Positions 57,941-64,000 of a stretch of 64,000 bases of DNA are shown here, in pieces; position 1 is the first letter of the stretch; each line of letters starts with the position of its first letter. Source of the DNA: Bacteroidota bacterium (GTDB lineage Bacteria > Bacteroidota > Bacteroidia > Chitinophagales > Chitinophagaceae); contig JACPEA010000002.1 of the NCBI GenBank assembly GCA_016183765.1, positions 1 through 64,000 on the forward strand. The letters run 5' to 3'. The notes beneath the pieces were generated by a model, which made no database searches, was not told the origin of the DNA, and saw nothing but the letters and a program-made list of their open reading frames with translations. The position numbers and the translations under genes are program-made.

Positions 57941-58156
57941 AGTAATGCGTAATTAGCAATGAAAAAATAATCAAAAAAAAGACTGGAACAGACAGGCTGG
58001 CCCATGCAGATGCGCACATGATCATGCACGGATCAGGGGTTCCGCCTTCAGCAGGAACATGGATGGTCGAGAAAATCTAAATTCAGGTGCAGGAAACGCA
58101 TAACAGGTATTTCATCTGCAAGATACTGGGAAAGGGTTGTTTGGGCAAGAAGAATA

Positions 58157-58252
58157 TAATGAGTGAATGAGTGAATGAGTGGATGAGTGGATGAGTGGAT
58201 GAGTGAATGGCTTGAACACATCCACTCATCCACTCATTCACTCATTCTATCA
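58157..58252. repeat. GAATGAGT element arranged as a perfect 29-bp inverted repeat
   Basis: The left arm (58165-58193) consists of GAATGAGTGAATGAGTGG and further GGATGAGT units; the right arm (58219-58247) is its exact reverse complement. The 25 bases between them contain two further units and CTTGAACACA. This is the only copy in both orientations. It lies in the gap of about 350 bases between the divergent rocD and glycosyltransferase starts; the rest of the gap (57941-58156) shows no gene or clear signal. Confidence 0.9.
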
Positions 58253-58291
58253 TTGAATTACCCTAATACACCTATTTTCGCAAAAAAAAAC

Positions 58292-59779: not shown

Positions 59780-59865
59780 GCCCTGGTGGTGGAACTGGTA
59801 GACACGCAGGACTTAAAATCCTGTTCGCCGCAACGCGAGTGCGGGTTCAATTCCCGCCTGGGGCA
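59780..59865 (+). tRNA. tRNA-Leu (TAA)
   Basis: The 86-base class II tRNA has GCCCTGG paired with CTGGGGC in the acceptor arm (two G-T pairs), discriminator A, anticodon loop CTTAAAA with TAA, a long variable arm TTCGCCGCAACGCGAG, and T arm GCGGGTTCAATTCCCGC. Its 3' end borders the foreign-looking island and could be the integration site. Confidence 0.96.
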
Positions 59866-59878
59866 CACAGTAAATCTT

Positions 59879-59917
59879 GAAACCCCTGACAGCATTAGCT
59901 TTCAGGGGTTTCTTGTT
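59879..59917 (+). terminator. Terminator of tRNA-Leu
   Basis: GAAACCCCTGA (59879-59889) pairs with TCAGGGGTTTC (59902-59912) and TTGTTTT follows. Confidence 0.85.
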
Positions 59918-59971
59918 TTAAGAGGGGACGTTTCAGGGGACGGATTAAATAATTTGTTTGCTGAATGATTT

Positions 59972-60913
59972 TTAAATTGAAATGAGCCATTGAATAAGCG
60001 ATACTAACTGATCATCATTTGTCAAATTTGCTGCACCAGTTAATTTTCCTGCATTTAACTCTTGATATATCTCGTCCGCCATGCTTTTTTCAATTGCGGC
60101 TCCAACAAAAAATAATGATGGATAGAGATCTTGTTTTGTAAATGCGTCTCTAATTCTATGGAAAGCTTTGTTTGCAGTTTTCCAATGTTCATCAGCGCCC
60201 GCTGGATCAATTCCACCTTTTAATTCGCCGAATGCTAAATAACGTGGATTTTCACCAAGTATCGAAGTCTTTCCTGTTAGGCTTTCTGTATGTTTTGCAG
60301 CCATAAGTACCAAGTCCACATTCTTTCCAACTACGGGGATCGACTTATTGAAAAGGAGCATTCTATCAGCTCCTTCTTTTTGCCAATATAAACTGGCAAT
60401 TCTACTTTCTATTTCAACATCATCGACTTTTTTATCGTACCAGTTTACTGATTCGGAGTCTTTCCATTTATAATGTATTCCTGATAAGTTTAAGACTGAA
60501 ACTAATGTTCGCAATAATTTTCTTGAAGCTAATGCACCAGCTAAATTTCGAGCTTTGCCTCCTAATGCATCGCCTTTTATTAATAGGAATCTATATACTA
60601 GTTCGTCAGCAAAACTTGGCCCTGCGGGTTCAAGAAATTTTTCGATTAAGCCTTCAATTGCTGTCGTTTGATCTTCCGCATTCAAATATCCCAAAGCTTT
60701 ATCTGAAAGCCCAGAGGCAGTTAAAAGTCCAAACCTGATTTCTTGAATAGCTAATAGTTCCTGTGGTGATTTAACTCTTGCCGCAATCGACCTTAACGCT
60801 TTGGCTTCTTCTATAAAAGGGATAGCCATATAATTTTTTTCAAGTGCCATAGAAATGAAACCGGCTCTTGTTTGATCTCTTGATGTAACTAAATCAGAGG
60901 CTGCAGATATCAT
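59972..60913 (-). CDS. BsoBI/AvaI-family type II restriction endonuclease
   Basis: From ATG 60913 (MISAASDLVTSRDQTRAGF) the 313 residues match the BsoBI/AvaI family in length (BsoBI 323). The sequence ends of the active site agree: NVDLVLMAA supplies the first Asp, and GELKGGIDPAGADEHWKTA supplies Glu, Lys and a His placed 13 residues after the Glu, the same spacing as Glu240, Lys242 and His253 of BsoBI. The known enzymes cut CYCGRG. The specificity here is inferred from family membership only. The longer frame to 61021 overlaps the methyltransferase gene and lacks family similarity. The gene lies ten bases downstream of the methyltransferase gene, the usual partner layout. Confidence 0.85.
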   Translation of the reverse strand: MISAASDLVTSRDQTRAGFISMALEKNYMAIPFIEEAKALRSIAARVKSPQELLAIQEIRFGLLTASGLSDKALGYLNAEDQTTAIEGLIEKFLEPAGPSFADELVYRFLLIKGDALGGKARNLAGALASRKLLRTLVSVLNLSGIHYKWKDSESVNWYDKKVDDVEIESRIASLYWQKEGADRMLLFNKSIPVVGKNVDLVLMAAKHTESLTGKTSILGENPRYLAFGELKGGIDPAGADEHWKTANKAFHRIRDAFTKQDLYPSLFFVGAAIEKSMADEIYQELNAGKLTGAANLTNDDQLVSLIQWLISI

Positions 60914-60923
60914 ATTTGTCGTT

Positions 60924-62348
60924 TTATTTTTTTTGCCACAGGTAAACGCATTTTCGCACCTCAGTACGACCAAAACTTCCCATTTGTTGACTACTATTTC
61001 CTTTGCCTTTTGGTAAAACAAAAATCTTCTTTATTTCAAATCCGAAGTTTTCAGCAAAATCAGATAAAATTAAATCAACAGGAATTTCTTCTCCACCATA
61101 TCTAACATTATCATTTACCATAACACAATAACCAGTGCTTTTAGTTACACGAGCCATTTCTGAAATGACGAAGCACATTTCTAAAAAATAATTCTTCACC
61201 ATTCGAGCAATATTGCTATTATTTAATTTCTCAAGTCTATTAAGTTCGTCAAGCATATAATTTACTTCAGTCATGGCCAATGAATTATTGTAAACACGCA
61301 TGACTTTCTCAAATTGGTCAATTTTGCCAATTTTTGTATAGGTGTTCTTCAAATAATCTACTTTTTCTTTATTCTCAACCGTACAGGAGAGCATTGTTTG
61401 ACGAAGATTTCTTACTTGATCATTATTATTACCCAGATAAACTAATTCTAACGCATAGGTTCTTGTATAGTCGTAACGATTGCAATAAGGTGGGGATGTT
61501 ATAATAAAATCAAAGTAATTAGACTTCATTTTTGGTAATTCATCAAGGCATGATCCAGAGATTATTTTTACTGGTTTCTTTTTTCGATTTGGGTTTTCAA
61601 ATTGTTCAAATAATGAAATATTTTGATTAGGAGAGAGATCGTCAATGATCTGTTGTAATTTATGTGTGACCGCATCTACAAATGATAAGATTTTTCCTTT
61701 ATCAAATTGTTTGCCAGACAAATCTCTTTTGGATCGATAATCCCAACGTAAATATTGCCCATCTTTCCTTGTGTAGCTTATTTGTTCAAGAATAGTGAAT
61801 GCAGCAAATTTTAAAACAGTTTGGATCTTAATATCTTTAATCTTTTTACAATAGGTTAAATATTTATTTAATAAAATTTCGGTCTCTTCAGGAAATGCAT
61901 CTTTTGTAATTGAAATATGCACTATCTCGTTTTTGTATTTTTTTATTTTATCTACTTCTTTCCATAAGTTTTTTGCAACTTGTTTTAATTTTTCAATTTC
62001 AATATCATTAATTGCATCCCTTGTTTCCATAACAAAAGAACCAACTGGTAATAGTTCGATTCCTTCGGCCTGCCACCCAAGTTCTTGGCCTGCAAATAAT
62101 GTTGTACCCGCTCCGGCAAAAGGATCGAGAAGTTTACCGGGTTTCGGTGCATATTCAGAAAGAAAATATTTTACGAGAGTTGAAGAAAAGCCTTCCTTGT
62201 ATTTAAACCAACGGTACAGAGGTTCCTCTTTATTTGCTTGAAAGCTAACAACTTTACGATTTAAGTTAAACGCAGTTTCTAATTTATTGTTAAGTCGATC
62301 AAAAAGCAGCTGTCGTTCAGTTGGAAAAATTTCTAGTGTTTCTATCAT
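60924..62348 (-). CDS. DNA methyltransferase (probably N4-cytosine) of the restriction-modification pair
   Basis: The enzyme protects host DNA from the adjacent endonuclease. SAM-binding motif I is LLDPFAGAGTTLFAGQELG (near residue 78) and the catalytic motif IV is FIITSPPYCNRYDYTRTYALEL (near residue 283); TSPPY is typical of N4-cytosine or some N6-adenine enzymes. Motif I comes before motif IV, with a long helical insertion between, and the end has GYCVMVNDNVRYGG. Length 474 residues fits M.AvaI-like enzymes. It is upstream of the endonuclease gene and downstream of a long palindrome, which may be its control region. Confidence 0.88.
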   Translation of the reverse strand: MIETLEIFPTERQLLFDRLNNKLETAFNLNRKVVSFQANKEEPLYRWFKYKEGFSSTLVKYFLSEYAPKPGKLLDPFAGAGTTLFAGQELGWQAEGIELLPVGSFVMETRDAINDIEIEKLKQVAKNLWKEVDKIKKYKNEIVHISITKDAFPEETEILLNKYLTYCKKIKDIKIQTVLKFAAFTILEQISYTRKDGQYLRWDYRSKRDLSGKQFDKGKILSFVDAVTHKLQQIIDDLSPNQNISLFEQFENPNRKKKPVKIISGSCLDELPKMKSNYFDFIITSPPYCNRYDYTRTYALELVYLGNNNDQVRNLRQTMLSCTVENKEKVDYLKNTYTKIGKIDQFEKVMRVYNNSLAMTEVNYMLDELNRLEKLNNSNIARMVKNYFLEMCFVISEMARVTKSTGYCVMVNDNVRYGGEEIPVDLILSDFAENFGFEIKKIFVLPKGKGNSSQQMGSFGRTEVRKCVYLWQKK

Positions 62349-62412
62349 CTATCAAATTTAGTATTTTGTTAGCTCTAAATATGCCAAAATATTTAGCCAA
62401 ACCCAGCTAATA

Positions 62413-62458
62413 CTAATGCTCATATATGTATATAATTATATACGTATATGAGCATTAG
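62413..62458. promoter_or_regulatory. 46-bp near-perfect palindrome upstream of the methyltransferase gene
   Basis: Both halves of 23 bases (CTAATGCTCATATATGTATA and its complement) pair at every position except one T-G pair at 62427/62444. It lies between the small zinc-ribbon gene and the methyltransferase start. The lack of a T-run argues against a terminator. A dyad of this size could be an operator, a cruciform-forming replication or nicking site, or a recombination site. Confidence 0.8.
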
Positions 62459-62469
62459 ATTTGTGCAAA

Positions 62470-62673
62470 CTATTTATAAAGGTGTAATCCTTGTGAACCA
62501 CATTTAGAACATCGGACAACAAGGTATTTTAATCTGTTTGTTAGCAATAGCTTTACATAATCGAAAGGCAATTGATTTAAAGGAATTTTTATCTCTTTCA
62601 TCAGTTCTTCGCATTTATCGCAAATTGATGTTTTTAGAAGATTGTCTATGTGTTGTTTTTCAGCTTGATTCAT
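62470..62673 (-). CDS. Small protein with two CxxC motifs
   Basis: From ATG 62673 (MNQAEKQHIDNLLKTS) the 67 residues contain CDKCEEL at position 18 and VRCSKCGSQGLHLY near the end. Two CxxC pairs suggest a zinc-binding fold, but the family is unknown. It could be a small regulator or an element-specific protein. It follows the 97-residue gene by ten bases. Confidence 0.6.
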   Translation of the reverse strand: MNQAEKQHIDNLLKTSICDKCEELMKEIKIPLNQLPFDYVKLLLTNRLKYLVVRCSKCGSQGLHLYK

Positions 62674-62683
62674 AATAATGATT

Positions 62684-62977
62684 TTAAAAATTTGTTTCTT
62701 TAAGTTTTTTAGCACGATTTAATAAGTCTTCGAAGAATTCCATTATTGTATAGCTTCTGCATAGAAATCCGGCAAAAATGGTTTTGTCTTCTTCATTTAA
62801 TGGATCAAATAAGATACTTGCAACGTTTTCAGTTGAAACGCTTAGCGCGATAAGATGCGCAGAGCTTTTATATCCCTCAAGCACTTCTAAAAATCGAGAT
62901 GGGATAATTTTTTCAAAATGGATAGCAGAAACTAATTTTCCATCCCTTGTTAGAGGTTGTTCGGCAATGTATTCCAT
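62684..62977 (-). CDS. Hypothetical protein of the island (97 aa)
   Basis: No family is recognised. The 97-residue protein begins MEYIAEQPLTRDGKLV and has helical segments FLEVLEGYKSSAHLIALS and TIMEFFEDLLNRAKKLK. Its start overlaps the end of the rep-like gene by 28 bases, and it precedes the CxxC gene, so all three are in one operon. Confidence 0.55.
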   Translation of the reverse strand: MEYIAEQPLTRDGKLVSAIHFEKIIPSRFLEVLEGYKSSAHLIALSVSTENVASILFDPLNEEDKTIFAGFLCRSYTIMEFFEDLLNRAKKLKETNF

Positions 62978-63822
62978 GTGTCTTTATTTTTTTGATGTAA
63001 CCGGTCGTAAAACCGAATAGTTGTTTTTGTTAGCGGGTAGAACATGAGATTGCAGTATTCTTCTTTAACCCGCTTTATGGTAATCTCTTTGGCTTCTTCC
63101 AAACGCTCGATCTCTTTGATAAATGAGAAGTCTGTATAGAAGTCGGTATATAGTTGAGAAATGCGTTTTGAACAATTCCAAACCTGGCATTTGAAAGCCT
63201 CGTTATTCTTCGTAACATATTTGGTCAGGTATATGCCTATTGACTTAACACTATTTCCTCCAATAGCCTTAACGTCAAATGCCGAAGTGGGAGAGAAGTT
63301 TTGATTTCGTGGGACTATCCCATGTTTCTTTTGCAGGGAGAGCCAATATTTCCAAACCTTGTCAATCTTCCAATATTTGTTGGTGATTAAATGAAAATGG
63401 ATATTTCCCTTGAAAGTTTCGTTTTTGTTCTGCCTTTCGGCCACCCATAGAAACTCGAACTTTTTATCCTGTTTTCTGATATTCTCCAAAAAACGGGCTA
63501 AGACTTTGACTCCTAATTCATCCGTGACCTCGTTTACAAAAGTCAAAGTGAGAAAAGTGAGCTTTTTGTATAACCCGAAAAAGGCATAAAGCTTTTTCCT
63601 GATCTTGCTCTTTGTCCGGGAGGACAGAGACCGGAGCTTTTTTTCAGTTCTTACCTGATCAATGCTCTCAGTCTCTTCCTGTTCCGGGGTGGAAGATTCG
63701 GGTTTAGCCTTTTCTTCTTTTTTGCGGTTAAGCGATGAGCCAGCGAACTCACCTATTTTGCTCGTATCTGTAAATTTTGGGTTCGGAACTACGCTGATGC
63801 CGAATGAATTTTTGACTAACAT
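62950..63822 (-). CDS. HUH-type replication initiator (Rep-like)
   Basis: The 290-residue protein carries the three rolling-circle motifs in order: motif I LTFLTLTFVN (near residue 95), motif II GNIHFHLIT with the His-hydrophobic-His metal site, and motif III IGIYLTKYVTK with two Tyr spaced four apart, as in catalytic Tyr positions. The N-terminal 60 residues are polar and probably disordered. Such Reps start rolling-circle replication of plasmids, mobilisable elements and some small phages of Bacteroidota by nicking the origin. It is the first gene of the island operon on the minus strand; an AT-rich region with short direct repeats lies upstream. Confidence 0.75.
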   Translation of the reverse strand: MLVKNSFGISVVPNPKFTDTSKIGEFAGSSLNRKKEEKAKPESSTPEQEETESIDQVRTEKKLRSLSSRTKSKIRKKLYAFFGLYKKLTFLTLTFVNEVTDELGVKVLARFLENIRKQDKKFEFLWVAERQNKNETFKGNIHFHLITNKYWKIDKVWKYWLSLQKKHGIVPRNQNFSPTSAFDVKAIGGNSVKSIGIYLTKYVTKNNEAFKCQVWNCSKRISQLYTDFYTDFSFIKEIERLEEAKEITIKRVKEEYCNLMFYPLTKTTIRFYDRLHQKNKDTWNTLPNNL

Positions 63823-63855
63823 AAATTCGGAATCGTTGCAGTTTTATAAATACCA

Positions 63856-63908
63856 TTAATAAAGGTTGAGCAAAACGAATTATTAAGGGTTAGTTTATTA
63901 AAGGTTAA
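63856..63908. repeat. Possible iteron-like direct repeats upstream of rep
   Basis: Three imperfect copies of TATTAAAGGTTA occur at about 63856 (TTAATAAAGGTTG), 63881 (TATTAAGGGTTAG) and 63896 (TATTAAAGGTTAA), with GGTT spacings of 24 and 15 bases. They sit in the AT-rich DNA upstream of the replication initiator gene, where an origin could be. The repeats are short and the spacing uneven, so the call is tentative. The remaining bases to the window end show no gene. Confidence 0.3.
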
Positions 63909-64000
63909 AAAAAAGAAAGGACTGAGAAGAAAGCCCATGAGTCCGAGAAACTCTGGTACCAAATTACCCTGATAGAATCGTTTGAGGTACTTTCTTGTCT

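Follow-up and report, generated by a model that had tools for sequence, protein, structure and literature searches.

Contig JACPEA010000002.1 of the Bacteroidota bacterium assembly GCA_016183765.1 (Chitinophagaceae) carries, directly behind a tRNA-Leu gene, what appears to be a small integrative element with a rolling-circle replication initiator (Rep) and a type II restriction-modification pair. The window, i.e., the whole stretch of DNA that was analysed, comprises bases 1-64000 of this 542-kb contig; it ends inside the element, and the right half was read from the same contig. An original prediction made from the window had described a composition shift behind tRNA-Leu followed by minus-strand genes for a rolling-circle initiator, two small proteins and a BsoBI/AvaI-type pair, and had placed the integrase, the right attachment (att) site and the rest of the element past the window edge. 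Each of these was found, the rest being Xis, Int and the remainder of o112; the original prediction was thus correct in what it described and for the most part in how it read it. From left to right the features are:

59780-59866, plus strand: tRNA-Leu(taa), the integration target, kept whole after insertion (98.9% identical to the tRNA-Leu at the empty site of genome G082, locus L037)
59852-59866, plus strand: attL core TCCCGCCTGGGGCAC, the tRNA-Leu 3' end
59852-64000: left 4.15 kb of the integrative element, continuing to 66028 (exact 15-bp direct repeat at both ends; G082 empty site)
59923-59929 and 59935-59941, minus strand: two putative integrase arm-type sites, AGGGGAC, 12 bp apart (sites at both ends, at similar offsets, in 12 of 13 bounded elements)
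59972-60913, minus strand: AvaI/BsoBI-type restriction endonuclease, 313 amino acids (aa) (PF09194 Endonuc-BsobI, 1.9e-128; BsoBI structure 1dc1, 1.3e-91)
60924-62348, minus strand: cognate DNA methyltransferase, 474 aa, with DPFAGAGT and TSPPY motifs (PF01555, 8.4e-9; PADLOC MTase_II, 2.3e-142)
62413-62458: 46-bp near-perfect palindrome (self-complementary match, 96%), 64 bp upstream of the methylase start
62470-62673, minus strand: o67, a CxxC...CxxC zinc-ribbon-like backbone protein, 67 aa (own profile, matching here, in L067, L075 and L077, and weakly in L074)
62684-62977, minus strand: o97, a small backbone protein whose gene follows that of Rep and overlaps it (relatives by profile in L067, L072, L073, L075, L076, L080 and L092)
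62950-63822, minus strand: Rep, HUH rolling-circle initiator, 290 aa (PF23343 REP_ORF2-G2P, 1.5e-10; PHROG 3419, 1.9e-15)
63829-63914, minus strand: putative double-strand origin with T8, AACCTTTAAT-type repeats, ATGGTATTTA and TGCAACGATTC, just upstream of Rep and overlapping the 3' end of the o112 frame
63816-64148, minus strand, crossing the window edge: o112, a small backbone protein between Xis and Rep (profile found in all 19 full backbones)
64138-64449, beyond the window: Xis, an excisionase-like helix-turn-helix (HTH) protein (PF12728, 2.7e-6; TIGR01764, 4e-7)
About 64511-64572 (L009:7512-7573): six 10-bp tandem repeats, CAAAGTGYGC-type, between Int and Xis
64610-65836, beyond the window: Int, tyrosine recombinase (PF00589, 2.2e-12; PF13102, 5.8e-17; PF17293)
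65875-65881 and 65887-65893: integrase-side counterparts of the arm-type sites
66014-66028, outside the window: attR, an identical 15-bp copy of TCCCGCCTGGGGCAC

Ends of the element and the empty site

The element extends from 59867 to 66028 (6,162 bp including one att copy), limits that follow from the integrase and the exact 15-base copy of the tRNA-Leu end found past the window edge. The integrase gene lies 177 bp from attR. The GC content, about 0.47 before tRNA-Leu, falls to 0.29-0.39 directly behind it; it is 0.348 for the whole element and returns to 0.43-0.53 within about 1 kb to the right, where chromosomal genes follow.

Used as a query, the tRNA flank matched 115 of the 121 genus genomes; 17 of the stretches that follow tRNA-Leu were compared. 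Five (L045, L046, L047, L049 and L050) were uninformative because the tRNA end could not be placed there; in the 12 that could be scored, Rep was never found behind tRNA-Leu. In G082, the noncoding sequence that lies right of attR in our contig stands directly behind tRNA-Leu, at a score of 53.5, as opposed to 13.5 for the best of 200 shuffles and 12.5 for the inside of attL; this is an empty site. The element is also absent from G073, where a right-hand gene lies within about 0.5 kb of the tRNA, and from this position in G091, where the left flank is 93% identical and right-flank homology resumes about 2.2 kb behind the tRNA. The remaining nine scored stretches did not show the right flank next to the tRNA (in L043 a right-flank gene is about 14.5 kb away), so the empty site comprises one sequence-level case and two cases of gene synteny.

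The finding that the original prediction could least have accommodated, namely that every relative has these genes at this position without a second copy of the tRNA end, was not what emerged. Rep matched in only two of the 121 genus genomes, this one included (the other, G091, has a 48%-identical Rep with other cargo on another contig, L034), the tRNA-Leu end is repeated, and G082 has the empty site. On the Rep distribution and the G082 site a fixed chromosomal locus was considered and rejected.

The same tRNA-Leu is followed in one congener (G117, L044:1707-5347) by relatives of Int (35%) and Xis, some 11-13 kb behind it; the position next to them holds a different 428-aa protein. Left of the tRNA, at 58150-58280 in the window, lies an interspersed repeat, about 40-100 bp long and of TGGATGAATGAGTG type, which occurs on both strands and accounts for nearly all of 113 genome-wide query matches.

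A family of elements in the Bacteroidota

The original prediction concerned a single island; the survey of other genomes shows it to be one member of a widespread family whose cargo, in many cases a defence gene, can be exchanged. Counting this genome and partial matches, Rep was matched in 10 of 394 genomes of the bacterial family and in 3 of 395 drawn from the phylum; the latter figure indicates that the elements are widespread but sparse. When 84,980 species genomes were scanned with patterns from the Rep alignment, at least 28 further loci were found, a lower bound because the contig scan needs exact peptide patterns. Loci with the same backbone matches (L060/L067, L061/L071, L062/L072, L063/L077, L064/L075 and L034/L076) were counted once. 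Nearly all the further loci are from Bacteroidota: Ginsengibacter, Rufibacter, Pontibacter, Cnuella, Ferruginibacter, Flavobacterium, Flagellimonas, Aestuariivivens, Allomuricauda, Mucilaginibacter, Daejeonella, Paludibacter and other metagenome-assembled genomes (MAGs), one of them labelled Bacillota. We suspect that this last (L073) is mis-binned, because the Rep of L072, a MAG assigned to the Bacteroidota, is 89% identical to its own.

Backbone profiles recovered the full order Int-(orfA)-Xis-o112-Rep in this element and in 18 of the other 28, with o97 and o67 behind Rep in part of the loci. Downstream of Rep, and facing the other way, 21 of the 29 loci (this one included) have a tRNA gene for Leu, Met, Glu, Arg, Ser or Lys. 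Moreover, 12 of the 19 loci with an upstream integrase have a direct repeat of 13-24 bases at the tRNA 3' end (starting no more than 10 bases from it), the copies 5.8-7.8 kb apart. At L084, where backbone profiles found no Int and only a fragment of orfA, a 398-aa open reading frame (L084:7883-9079), taken for a transposase from its sequence, occupies the expected Int position.

The ends share a second feature. Across the 13 elements with a usable repeat (L087 among them), the heptamer GTCCCCT occurs 45 times in the end zones and once in 80,108 internal bp. It is present on both sides in 12 of the 13, with none in L086, usually as two copies 12 bases apart; L067, L070, L087 and L090 have a single copy on one or other side. 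Measured inward from the integrase-side repeat, the copies lie at 132-148 bases, reaching 167 in L080; L077 adds a third at 157. The distance from the tRNA-side repeat is 62-76 bases, except in L080 (54-66) and in L090, where a single copy lies at 44. This layout is what would be expected of integrase arm-type sites; PF17293, matched in the integrase, is an arm-binding domain.

Defence genes often cluster near tRNAs, and one alternative is an ordinary chromosomal defence island in which Rep and the integrase lie by chance. We consider this very improbable given the collinear backbone in many genera, the tRNA-end repeats, the end-specific arm sites and the empty site. A chance association of tRNA, Rep and restriction genes was rejected on the repeated architecture of backbone order, end repeats and arm sites.

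Relatives of the integrase occur in 86 plasmid and 82 phage records, all at less than 60% identity. Two gut-virome records among the top integrase matches contained no Xis, o112, Rep, o97, o67 or orfA at E 0.1.

The restriction-modification cargo

The endonuclease aligns with BsoBI (1dc1) over nearly its whole length, with D200, E230, K232 and H243 opposite BsoBI D212, E240, K242 and H253, which we take to be the active-site residues. Its start is most likely the ATG at 60913 rather than an upstream TTG, since the family alignment begins there. Presumably the enzyme recognises CYCGRG, the site expected of the AvaI/BsoBI type; this sequence occurs once in the element and 21 times in the 59.9 kb of the window outside it. 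The methylase gene lies 10 bp upstream on the same strand. No controller gene was recognised beside the pair, and the 46-bp palindrome could be an operator for it, or a terminator dividing cargo from backbone. As the original prediction proposed, the pair would probably both addict and defend the host.

PF09194 is found in 8 of 395 phylum genomes, this one included. All six of the other full-length copies have a methylase relative directly upstream (57-73% identical), and a partial copy has one nearby; the pair thus travels as a unit elsewhere in the phylum. The loci examined around the six, about 3.9 kb each, gave no Rep match.

Exchange of the cargo slot

The segment between backbone and tRNA varies from element to element, and in 12 of the 29 loci it holds a clear restriction or defence gene:

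This element: AvaI/BsoBI
L067 (split over two frames) and L084: Type ISP
L082: Type IIG
L070: GmrSD
L073 (HNH shown there) and its relative L086: EcoRI-type methylase and GmrSD-HNH
L075: Shedu
L081 and L085 (the latter with an EVE-HNH protein): Mrr
L083: retron III-A reverse transcriptase and PRTase-CE
L090: McrBC

L073 and L081 are counted here though their element ends were not found. Left out of the count as possible only are L079 (PADLOC candidate PDC-M36A), L087 (weak LmuA/MBL-like), L093 (AAA_21 with many weak matches) and L088 (a retron-type reverse transcriptase downstream, end not found). Cargo without a defence match includes an EamA transporter (L068), a DUF4236 protein (L072) and a BRCT protein (L069); some of the remaining loci have no cargo in view.

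Cargo proteins were scanned with Pfam (30 proteins) and PADLOC (22). At E 1e-5, PADLOC matched 12 of its 22 and none of 8 control proteins (from 12 flanking proteins), a comparison that is descriptive and not an enrichment test because size and interest guided the choice of cargo proteins, which was not exhaustive.

Exchange is clearest in the Flavobacterium tRNA-Met elements L079, L082, L083 and L086. Their Rep proteins are 83-97% identical and their cargo is different in every case: L079 holds a PADLOC candidate, L082 a Type IIG enzyme, L083 a retron and L086 a methylase-GmrSD pair. Alignment of L079 with L083 gives about 91% identity across Rep and its neighbour and 95% for the final 102 bases next to the tRNA; the segment between does not align. 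L073 and L086 share a cargo pair (79% identity along 291 aa and 70% along 360 aa), and their Rep proteins are 53% identical. Cargo can therefore differ between similar backbones and be similar between diverged ones.

Two of the unassigned cargo regions are worth recording. The three-gene cargo of L077 (L077:11322-13633) includes proteins of 467 and 183 aa with neither Pfam nor PADLOC match, and is a candidate defence system. Behind Rep in L088 (L088:10993-19679) stand a 2,276-aa protein with no PADLOC match and the reverse transcriptase already mentioned, which is of retron III-A type.

Rep and a candidate origin

Rep, which also matches PHROG 3584, contains the motifs FLTLTF, HFH (residues 142-144) and YLTKY (Tyr198 and Tyr202). 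H142, H144, Y198 and Y202 do not vary among the 21 sequences aligned (from 21 of the 29 loci). The predicted model has a mean predicted local distance difference test (pLDDT) score of 75 and matches HUH folds, best 2x3g (SIRV1 ORF119; Z 9.6, root-mean-square deviation 2.9, 111 residues aligned), with adeno-associated virus (AAV) Rep domains at Z about 6. Neither the Rep profile nor the methylase matched PDB sequences.

Upstream regions were compared for the 22 loci with a full-length Rep and enough upstream sequence. A T-run with RACCTTYA is present in 18 of the 22, and ATGRTWTTWA followed by YAACNATT in 20. The DNA sequence of the block is conserved even in its overlap with the o112 frame, and the block looks like a double-strand origin.

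A second view of such a Rep is that the element is a satellite of a single-stranded-DNA phage, with a helper packaging the strand that Rep displaces. The profiles that Rep matches (PF23343 REP_ORF2-G2P; PHROG 3419 and 3584) are named for phage initiators, and a temperate single-stranded-DNA phage of Flavobacterium reportedly exists (PMC9719478). The Rep model had 104 matches in BFVD at E <= 0.001, with TM-scores of at most 0.54; among the 50 listed, two are named microvirus replication initiators, and the best match has no name. We nevertheless regard this as unlikely: no capsid, packaging or Zot-like gene was recognised in the element, a Zot search of this genome gave no match, a tblastn search with Rep of plasmid collections and 50,697 phage records gave none, and the Rep alignment yielded 282 candidates in viral contigs, 0 of which were confirmed.

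Small backbone genes and integrity of the backbone

Only about the first 75 aa of o112 are conserved (alignment of 18 loci). Its predicted model (pLDDT 92.6) is beta-beta-alpha-beta-beta, and a comparison with the PDB gave no convincing match (best Foldseek E 1.2, best Z 4.8). A Pfam search with o97 gave no match, and o67 relatives come after Rep in some other elements. Among the 19 full backbones orfA is absent only here and in L083, i.e., present in 17. In these two, the 10-base tandem repeats upstream of Xis (periodic identity 0.9, versus at most 0.63 in the other 19 upstream regions) stand where other backbones hold orfA.

The missing orfA, and a Rep match in just one of the 120 other genus genomes searched, would suit an old insertion, now immobile, that is kept only for its restriction system. 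This is quite unlikely, since the backbone frames are all unbroken, the att cores are identical, the arm sites are intact at the family offsets and the repeats fill the orfA position, as in the orfA-less L083.

Proposed mechanism and mobility

What lies at the locus is thus an intact integration module with matching ends, an empty site in a relative, an HUH initiator with an origin-like block, and a complete restriction pair. We conclude, at a probability of roughly 0.86, that this is a 6.2-kb integrative element of a Bacteroidota-wide family, one that would excise and replicate by rolling circle and whose cargo slot often contains defence genes. Int, with the HTH protein as directionality factor, would excise the element as a circle. 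Rep would nick the upstream block and copy the circle by rolling circle, and so the circle would be kept while outside the chromosome. The circle or a single strand would get into a new cell with outside help, and Int would reinsert the element at a tRNA end. The restriction pair would cut unmethylated incoming DNA such as that of phage, and the need for ongoing methylation would penalise loss of the element. Over time the slot would be refilled, often by other defence systems, while the backbone stays.

Several observations weigh against this conclusion. The family is sparse in both surveys (10/394 and 3/395), and 10 of the 28 further loci have no full backbone, being cut by contig ends or having only part of the backbone or Rep. 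Of the 19 loci in which an integrase stands upstream, only 12 were counted as having the tRNA-end repeat. L087 shows a repeat where no tRNA was called, contig ends truncate L071, L076 and L083, and no repeat was obtained for L075, L088 or L089. Just 1 of the 12 scored relatives has the empty site at sequence level, and what lies behind the tRNA mostly differs from the right flank. Clear defence cargo is missing from 17 of the 29 loci. Mean pLDDT is below 50 in two of five Rep models, and Rep went unmatched in the plasmid, phage and viral-contig searches, so that these gave no sign of a free form. Finally, a Pfam search (E 0.1) of the eight element proteins found no canonical relaxase, coupling protein or capsid domain, nor any TcpA/FtsK-like or FtsK/TraB-like protein.

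How a 6-kb element so equipped would pass between cells leads to a proposal about transfer that is compatible with our main conclusion: Rep may also be a non-canonical relaxase, nicking the origin-like block and piloting the strand into a resident type IV secretion system. The same contig carries, at about 524-531 kb (C16; L113/L114), CTnDOT-type genes for CtnDOT_TraJ, a TraG P-loop protein and DUF4138, presumably TraN, and a conjugative helper is plausible because such candidate genes are in the same genome. For streptococcal elements of like build, Rep-like proteins have been proposed as relaxases, and 35 of 118 have no coupling protein, according to the portions of PMC5704250 and PMC5357655 available. 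No origin of transfer (oriT) was identified in the element and no coupling protein was found in it; on balance we give conjugative hitchhiking somewhat less than even odds. Near the conjugation genes, L114:16066-17406 encodes a protein with a Peptidase_M91 (effector protein) domain.

A broader proposal, which we hold more tentatively still, is that these 6-8 kb elements form an undescribed Bacteroidota family that serves as a vehicle for single swappable anti-phage systems. Rep would be both initiator and non-canonical relaxase, so that the element replicates once excised and rides resident conjugative machinery. The proteins o112, o97 and o67 would be accessory factors of a new kind that act in replication or transfer, and cargo genes without assignment would include an excess of defence systems yet to be discovered.

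Significance and comparison with known systems

Small integrative elements are an important route for the movement of bacterial immune systems. This family offers a clean set, with one backbone, defined ends, a replication protein with an origin candidate, and a slot that varies between near-identical backbones. The intercellular transfer of a 6-kb element with no canonical relaxase or capsid is therefore directly testable, and cargo genes without assignment are candidates for new defence systems. The class itself, small integrative elements with rolling-circle proteins, has already been conceived. What is apparently undescribed is a Bacteroidota family with a REP_ORF2-G2P initiator, o112 and exchangeable cargo; a search of the open-licence PubMed Central (PMC) literature by title and start of abstract found no description of it, which is weak evidence.

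Actinomycete elements of the pSAM2 kind combine Int, Xis and a rolling-circle Rep in a tRNA gene, as here, together with an FtsK/TraB-like translocase that was not found among the eight proteins of our element by Pfam. With AvaI/BsoBI systems (BsoBI, PDB 1dc1) it shares the endonuclease family, the aligned active-site residues and the adjacent methylase. Unlike the six other full-length copies in the phylum genomes drawn, with no Rep match in the roughly 3.9 kb examined at each, the pair here is cargo of an integrative element.

Also close are the streptococcal integrative and mobilizable elements (IMEs) whose relaxases resemble rolling-circle initiators (MobT, Rep_2 and PHA00330 classes). As described in the available parts of PMC5357655 and PMC5704250, these have a tyrosine integrase, in many cases at tRNA 3' ends with direct repeats, a directionality factor, a Rep-related protein and modular variable content. 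Our family differs in its Bacteroidota hosts, its REP_ORF2-G2P-family Rep, the conserved o112, o97 and o67 and a cargo that is often a restriction system, and TcpA was not found in our element. The few Bacteroidetes IMEs that PMC5704250 covers, in the portion available, carry canonical relaxases. NBU1/NBU2 and MTnPi4 resemble our element in having a tyrosine integrase that targets a tRNA 3' end in Bacteroidetes hosts, and tRNA-Leu is the target of NBU1 and MTnPi4. They are, however, classed with the canonical-relaxase elements (MobP for NBU1 and NBU2), and the same portion of that source does not mention a rolling-circle Rep in connection with them. Phage satellites with defence genes, as treated in the available part of PMC11389934, differ from our element, which has an HUH initiator, no recognised capsid-hijacking or packaging gene and no known helper; they are like it in being small integrative hitchhikers that often carry defence genes.

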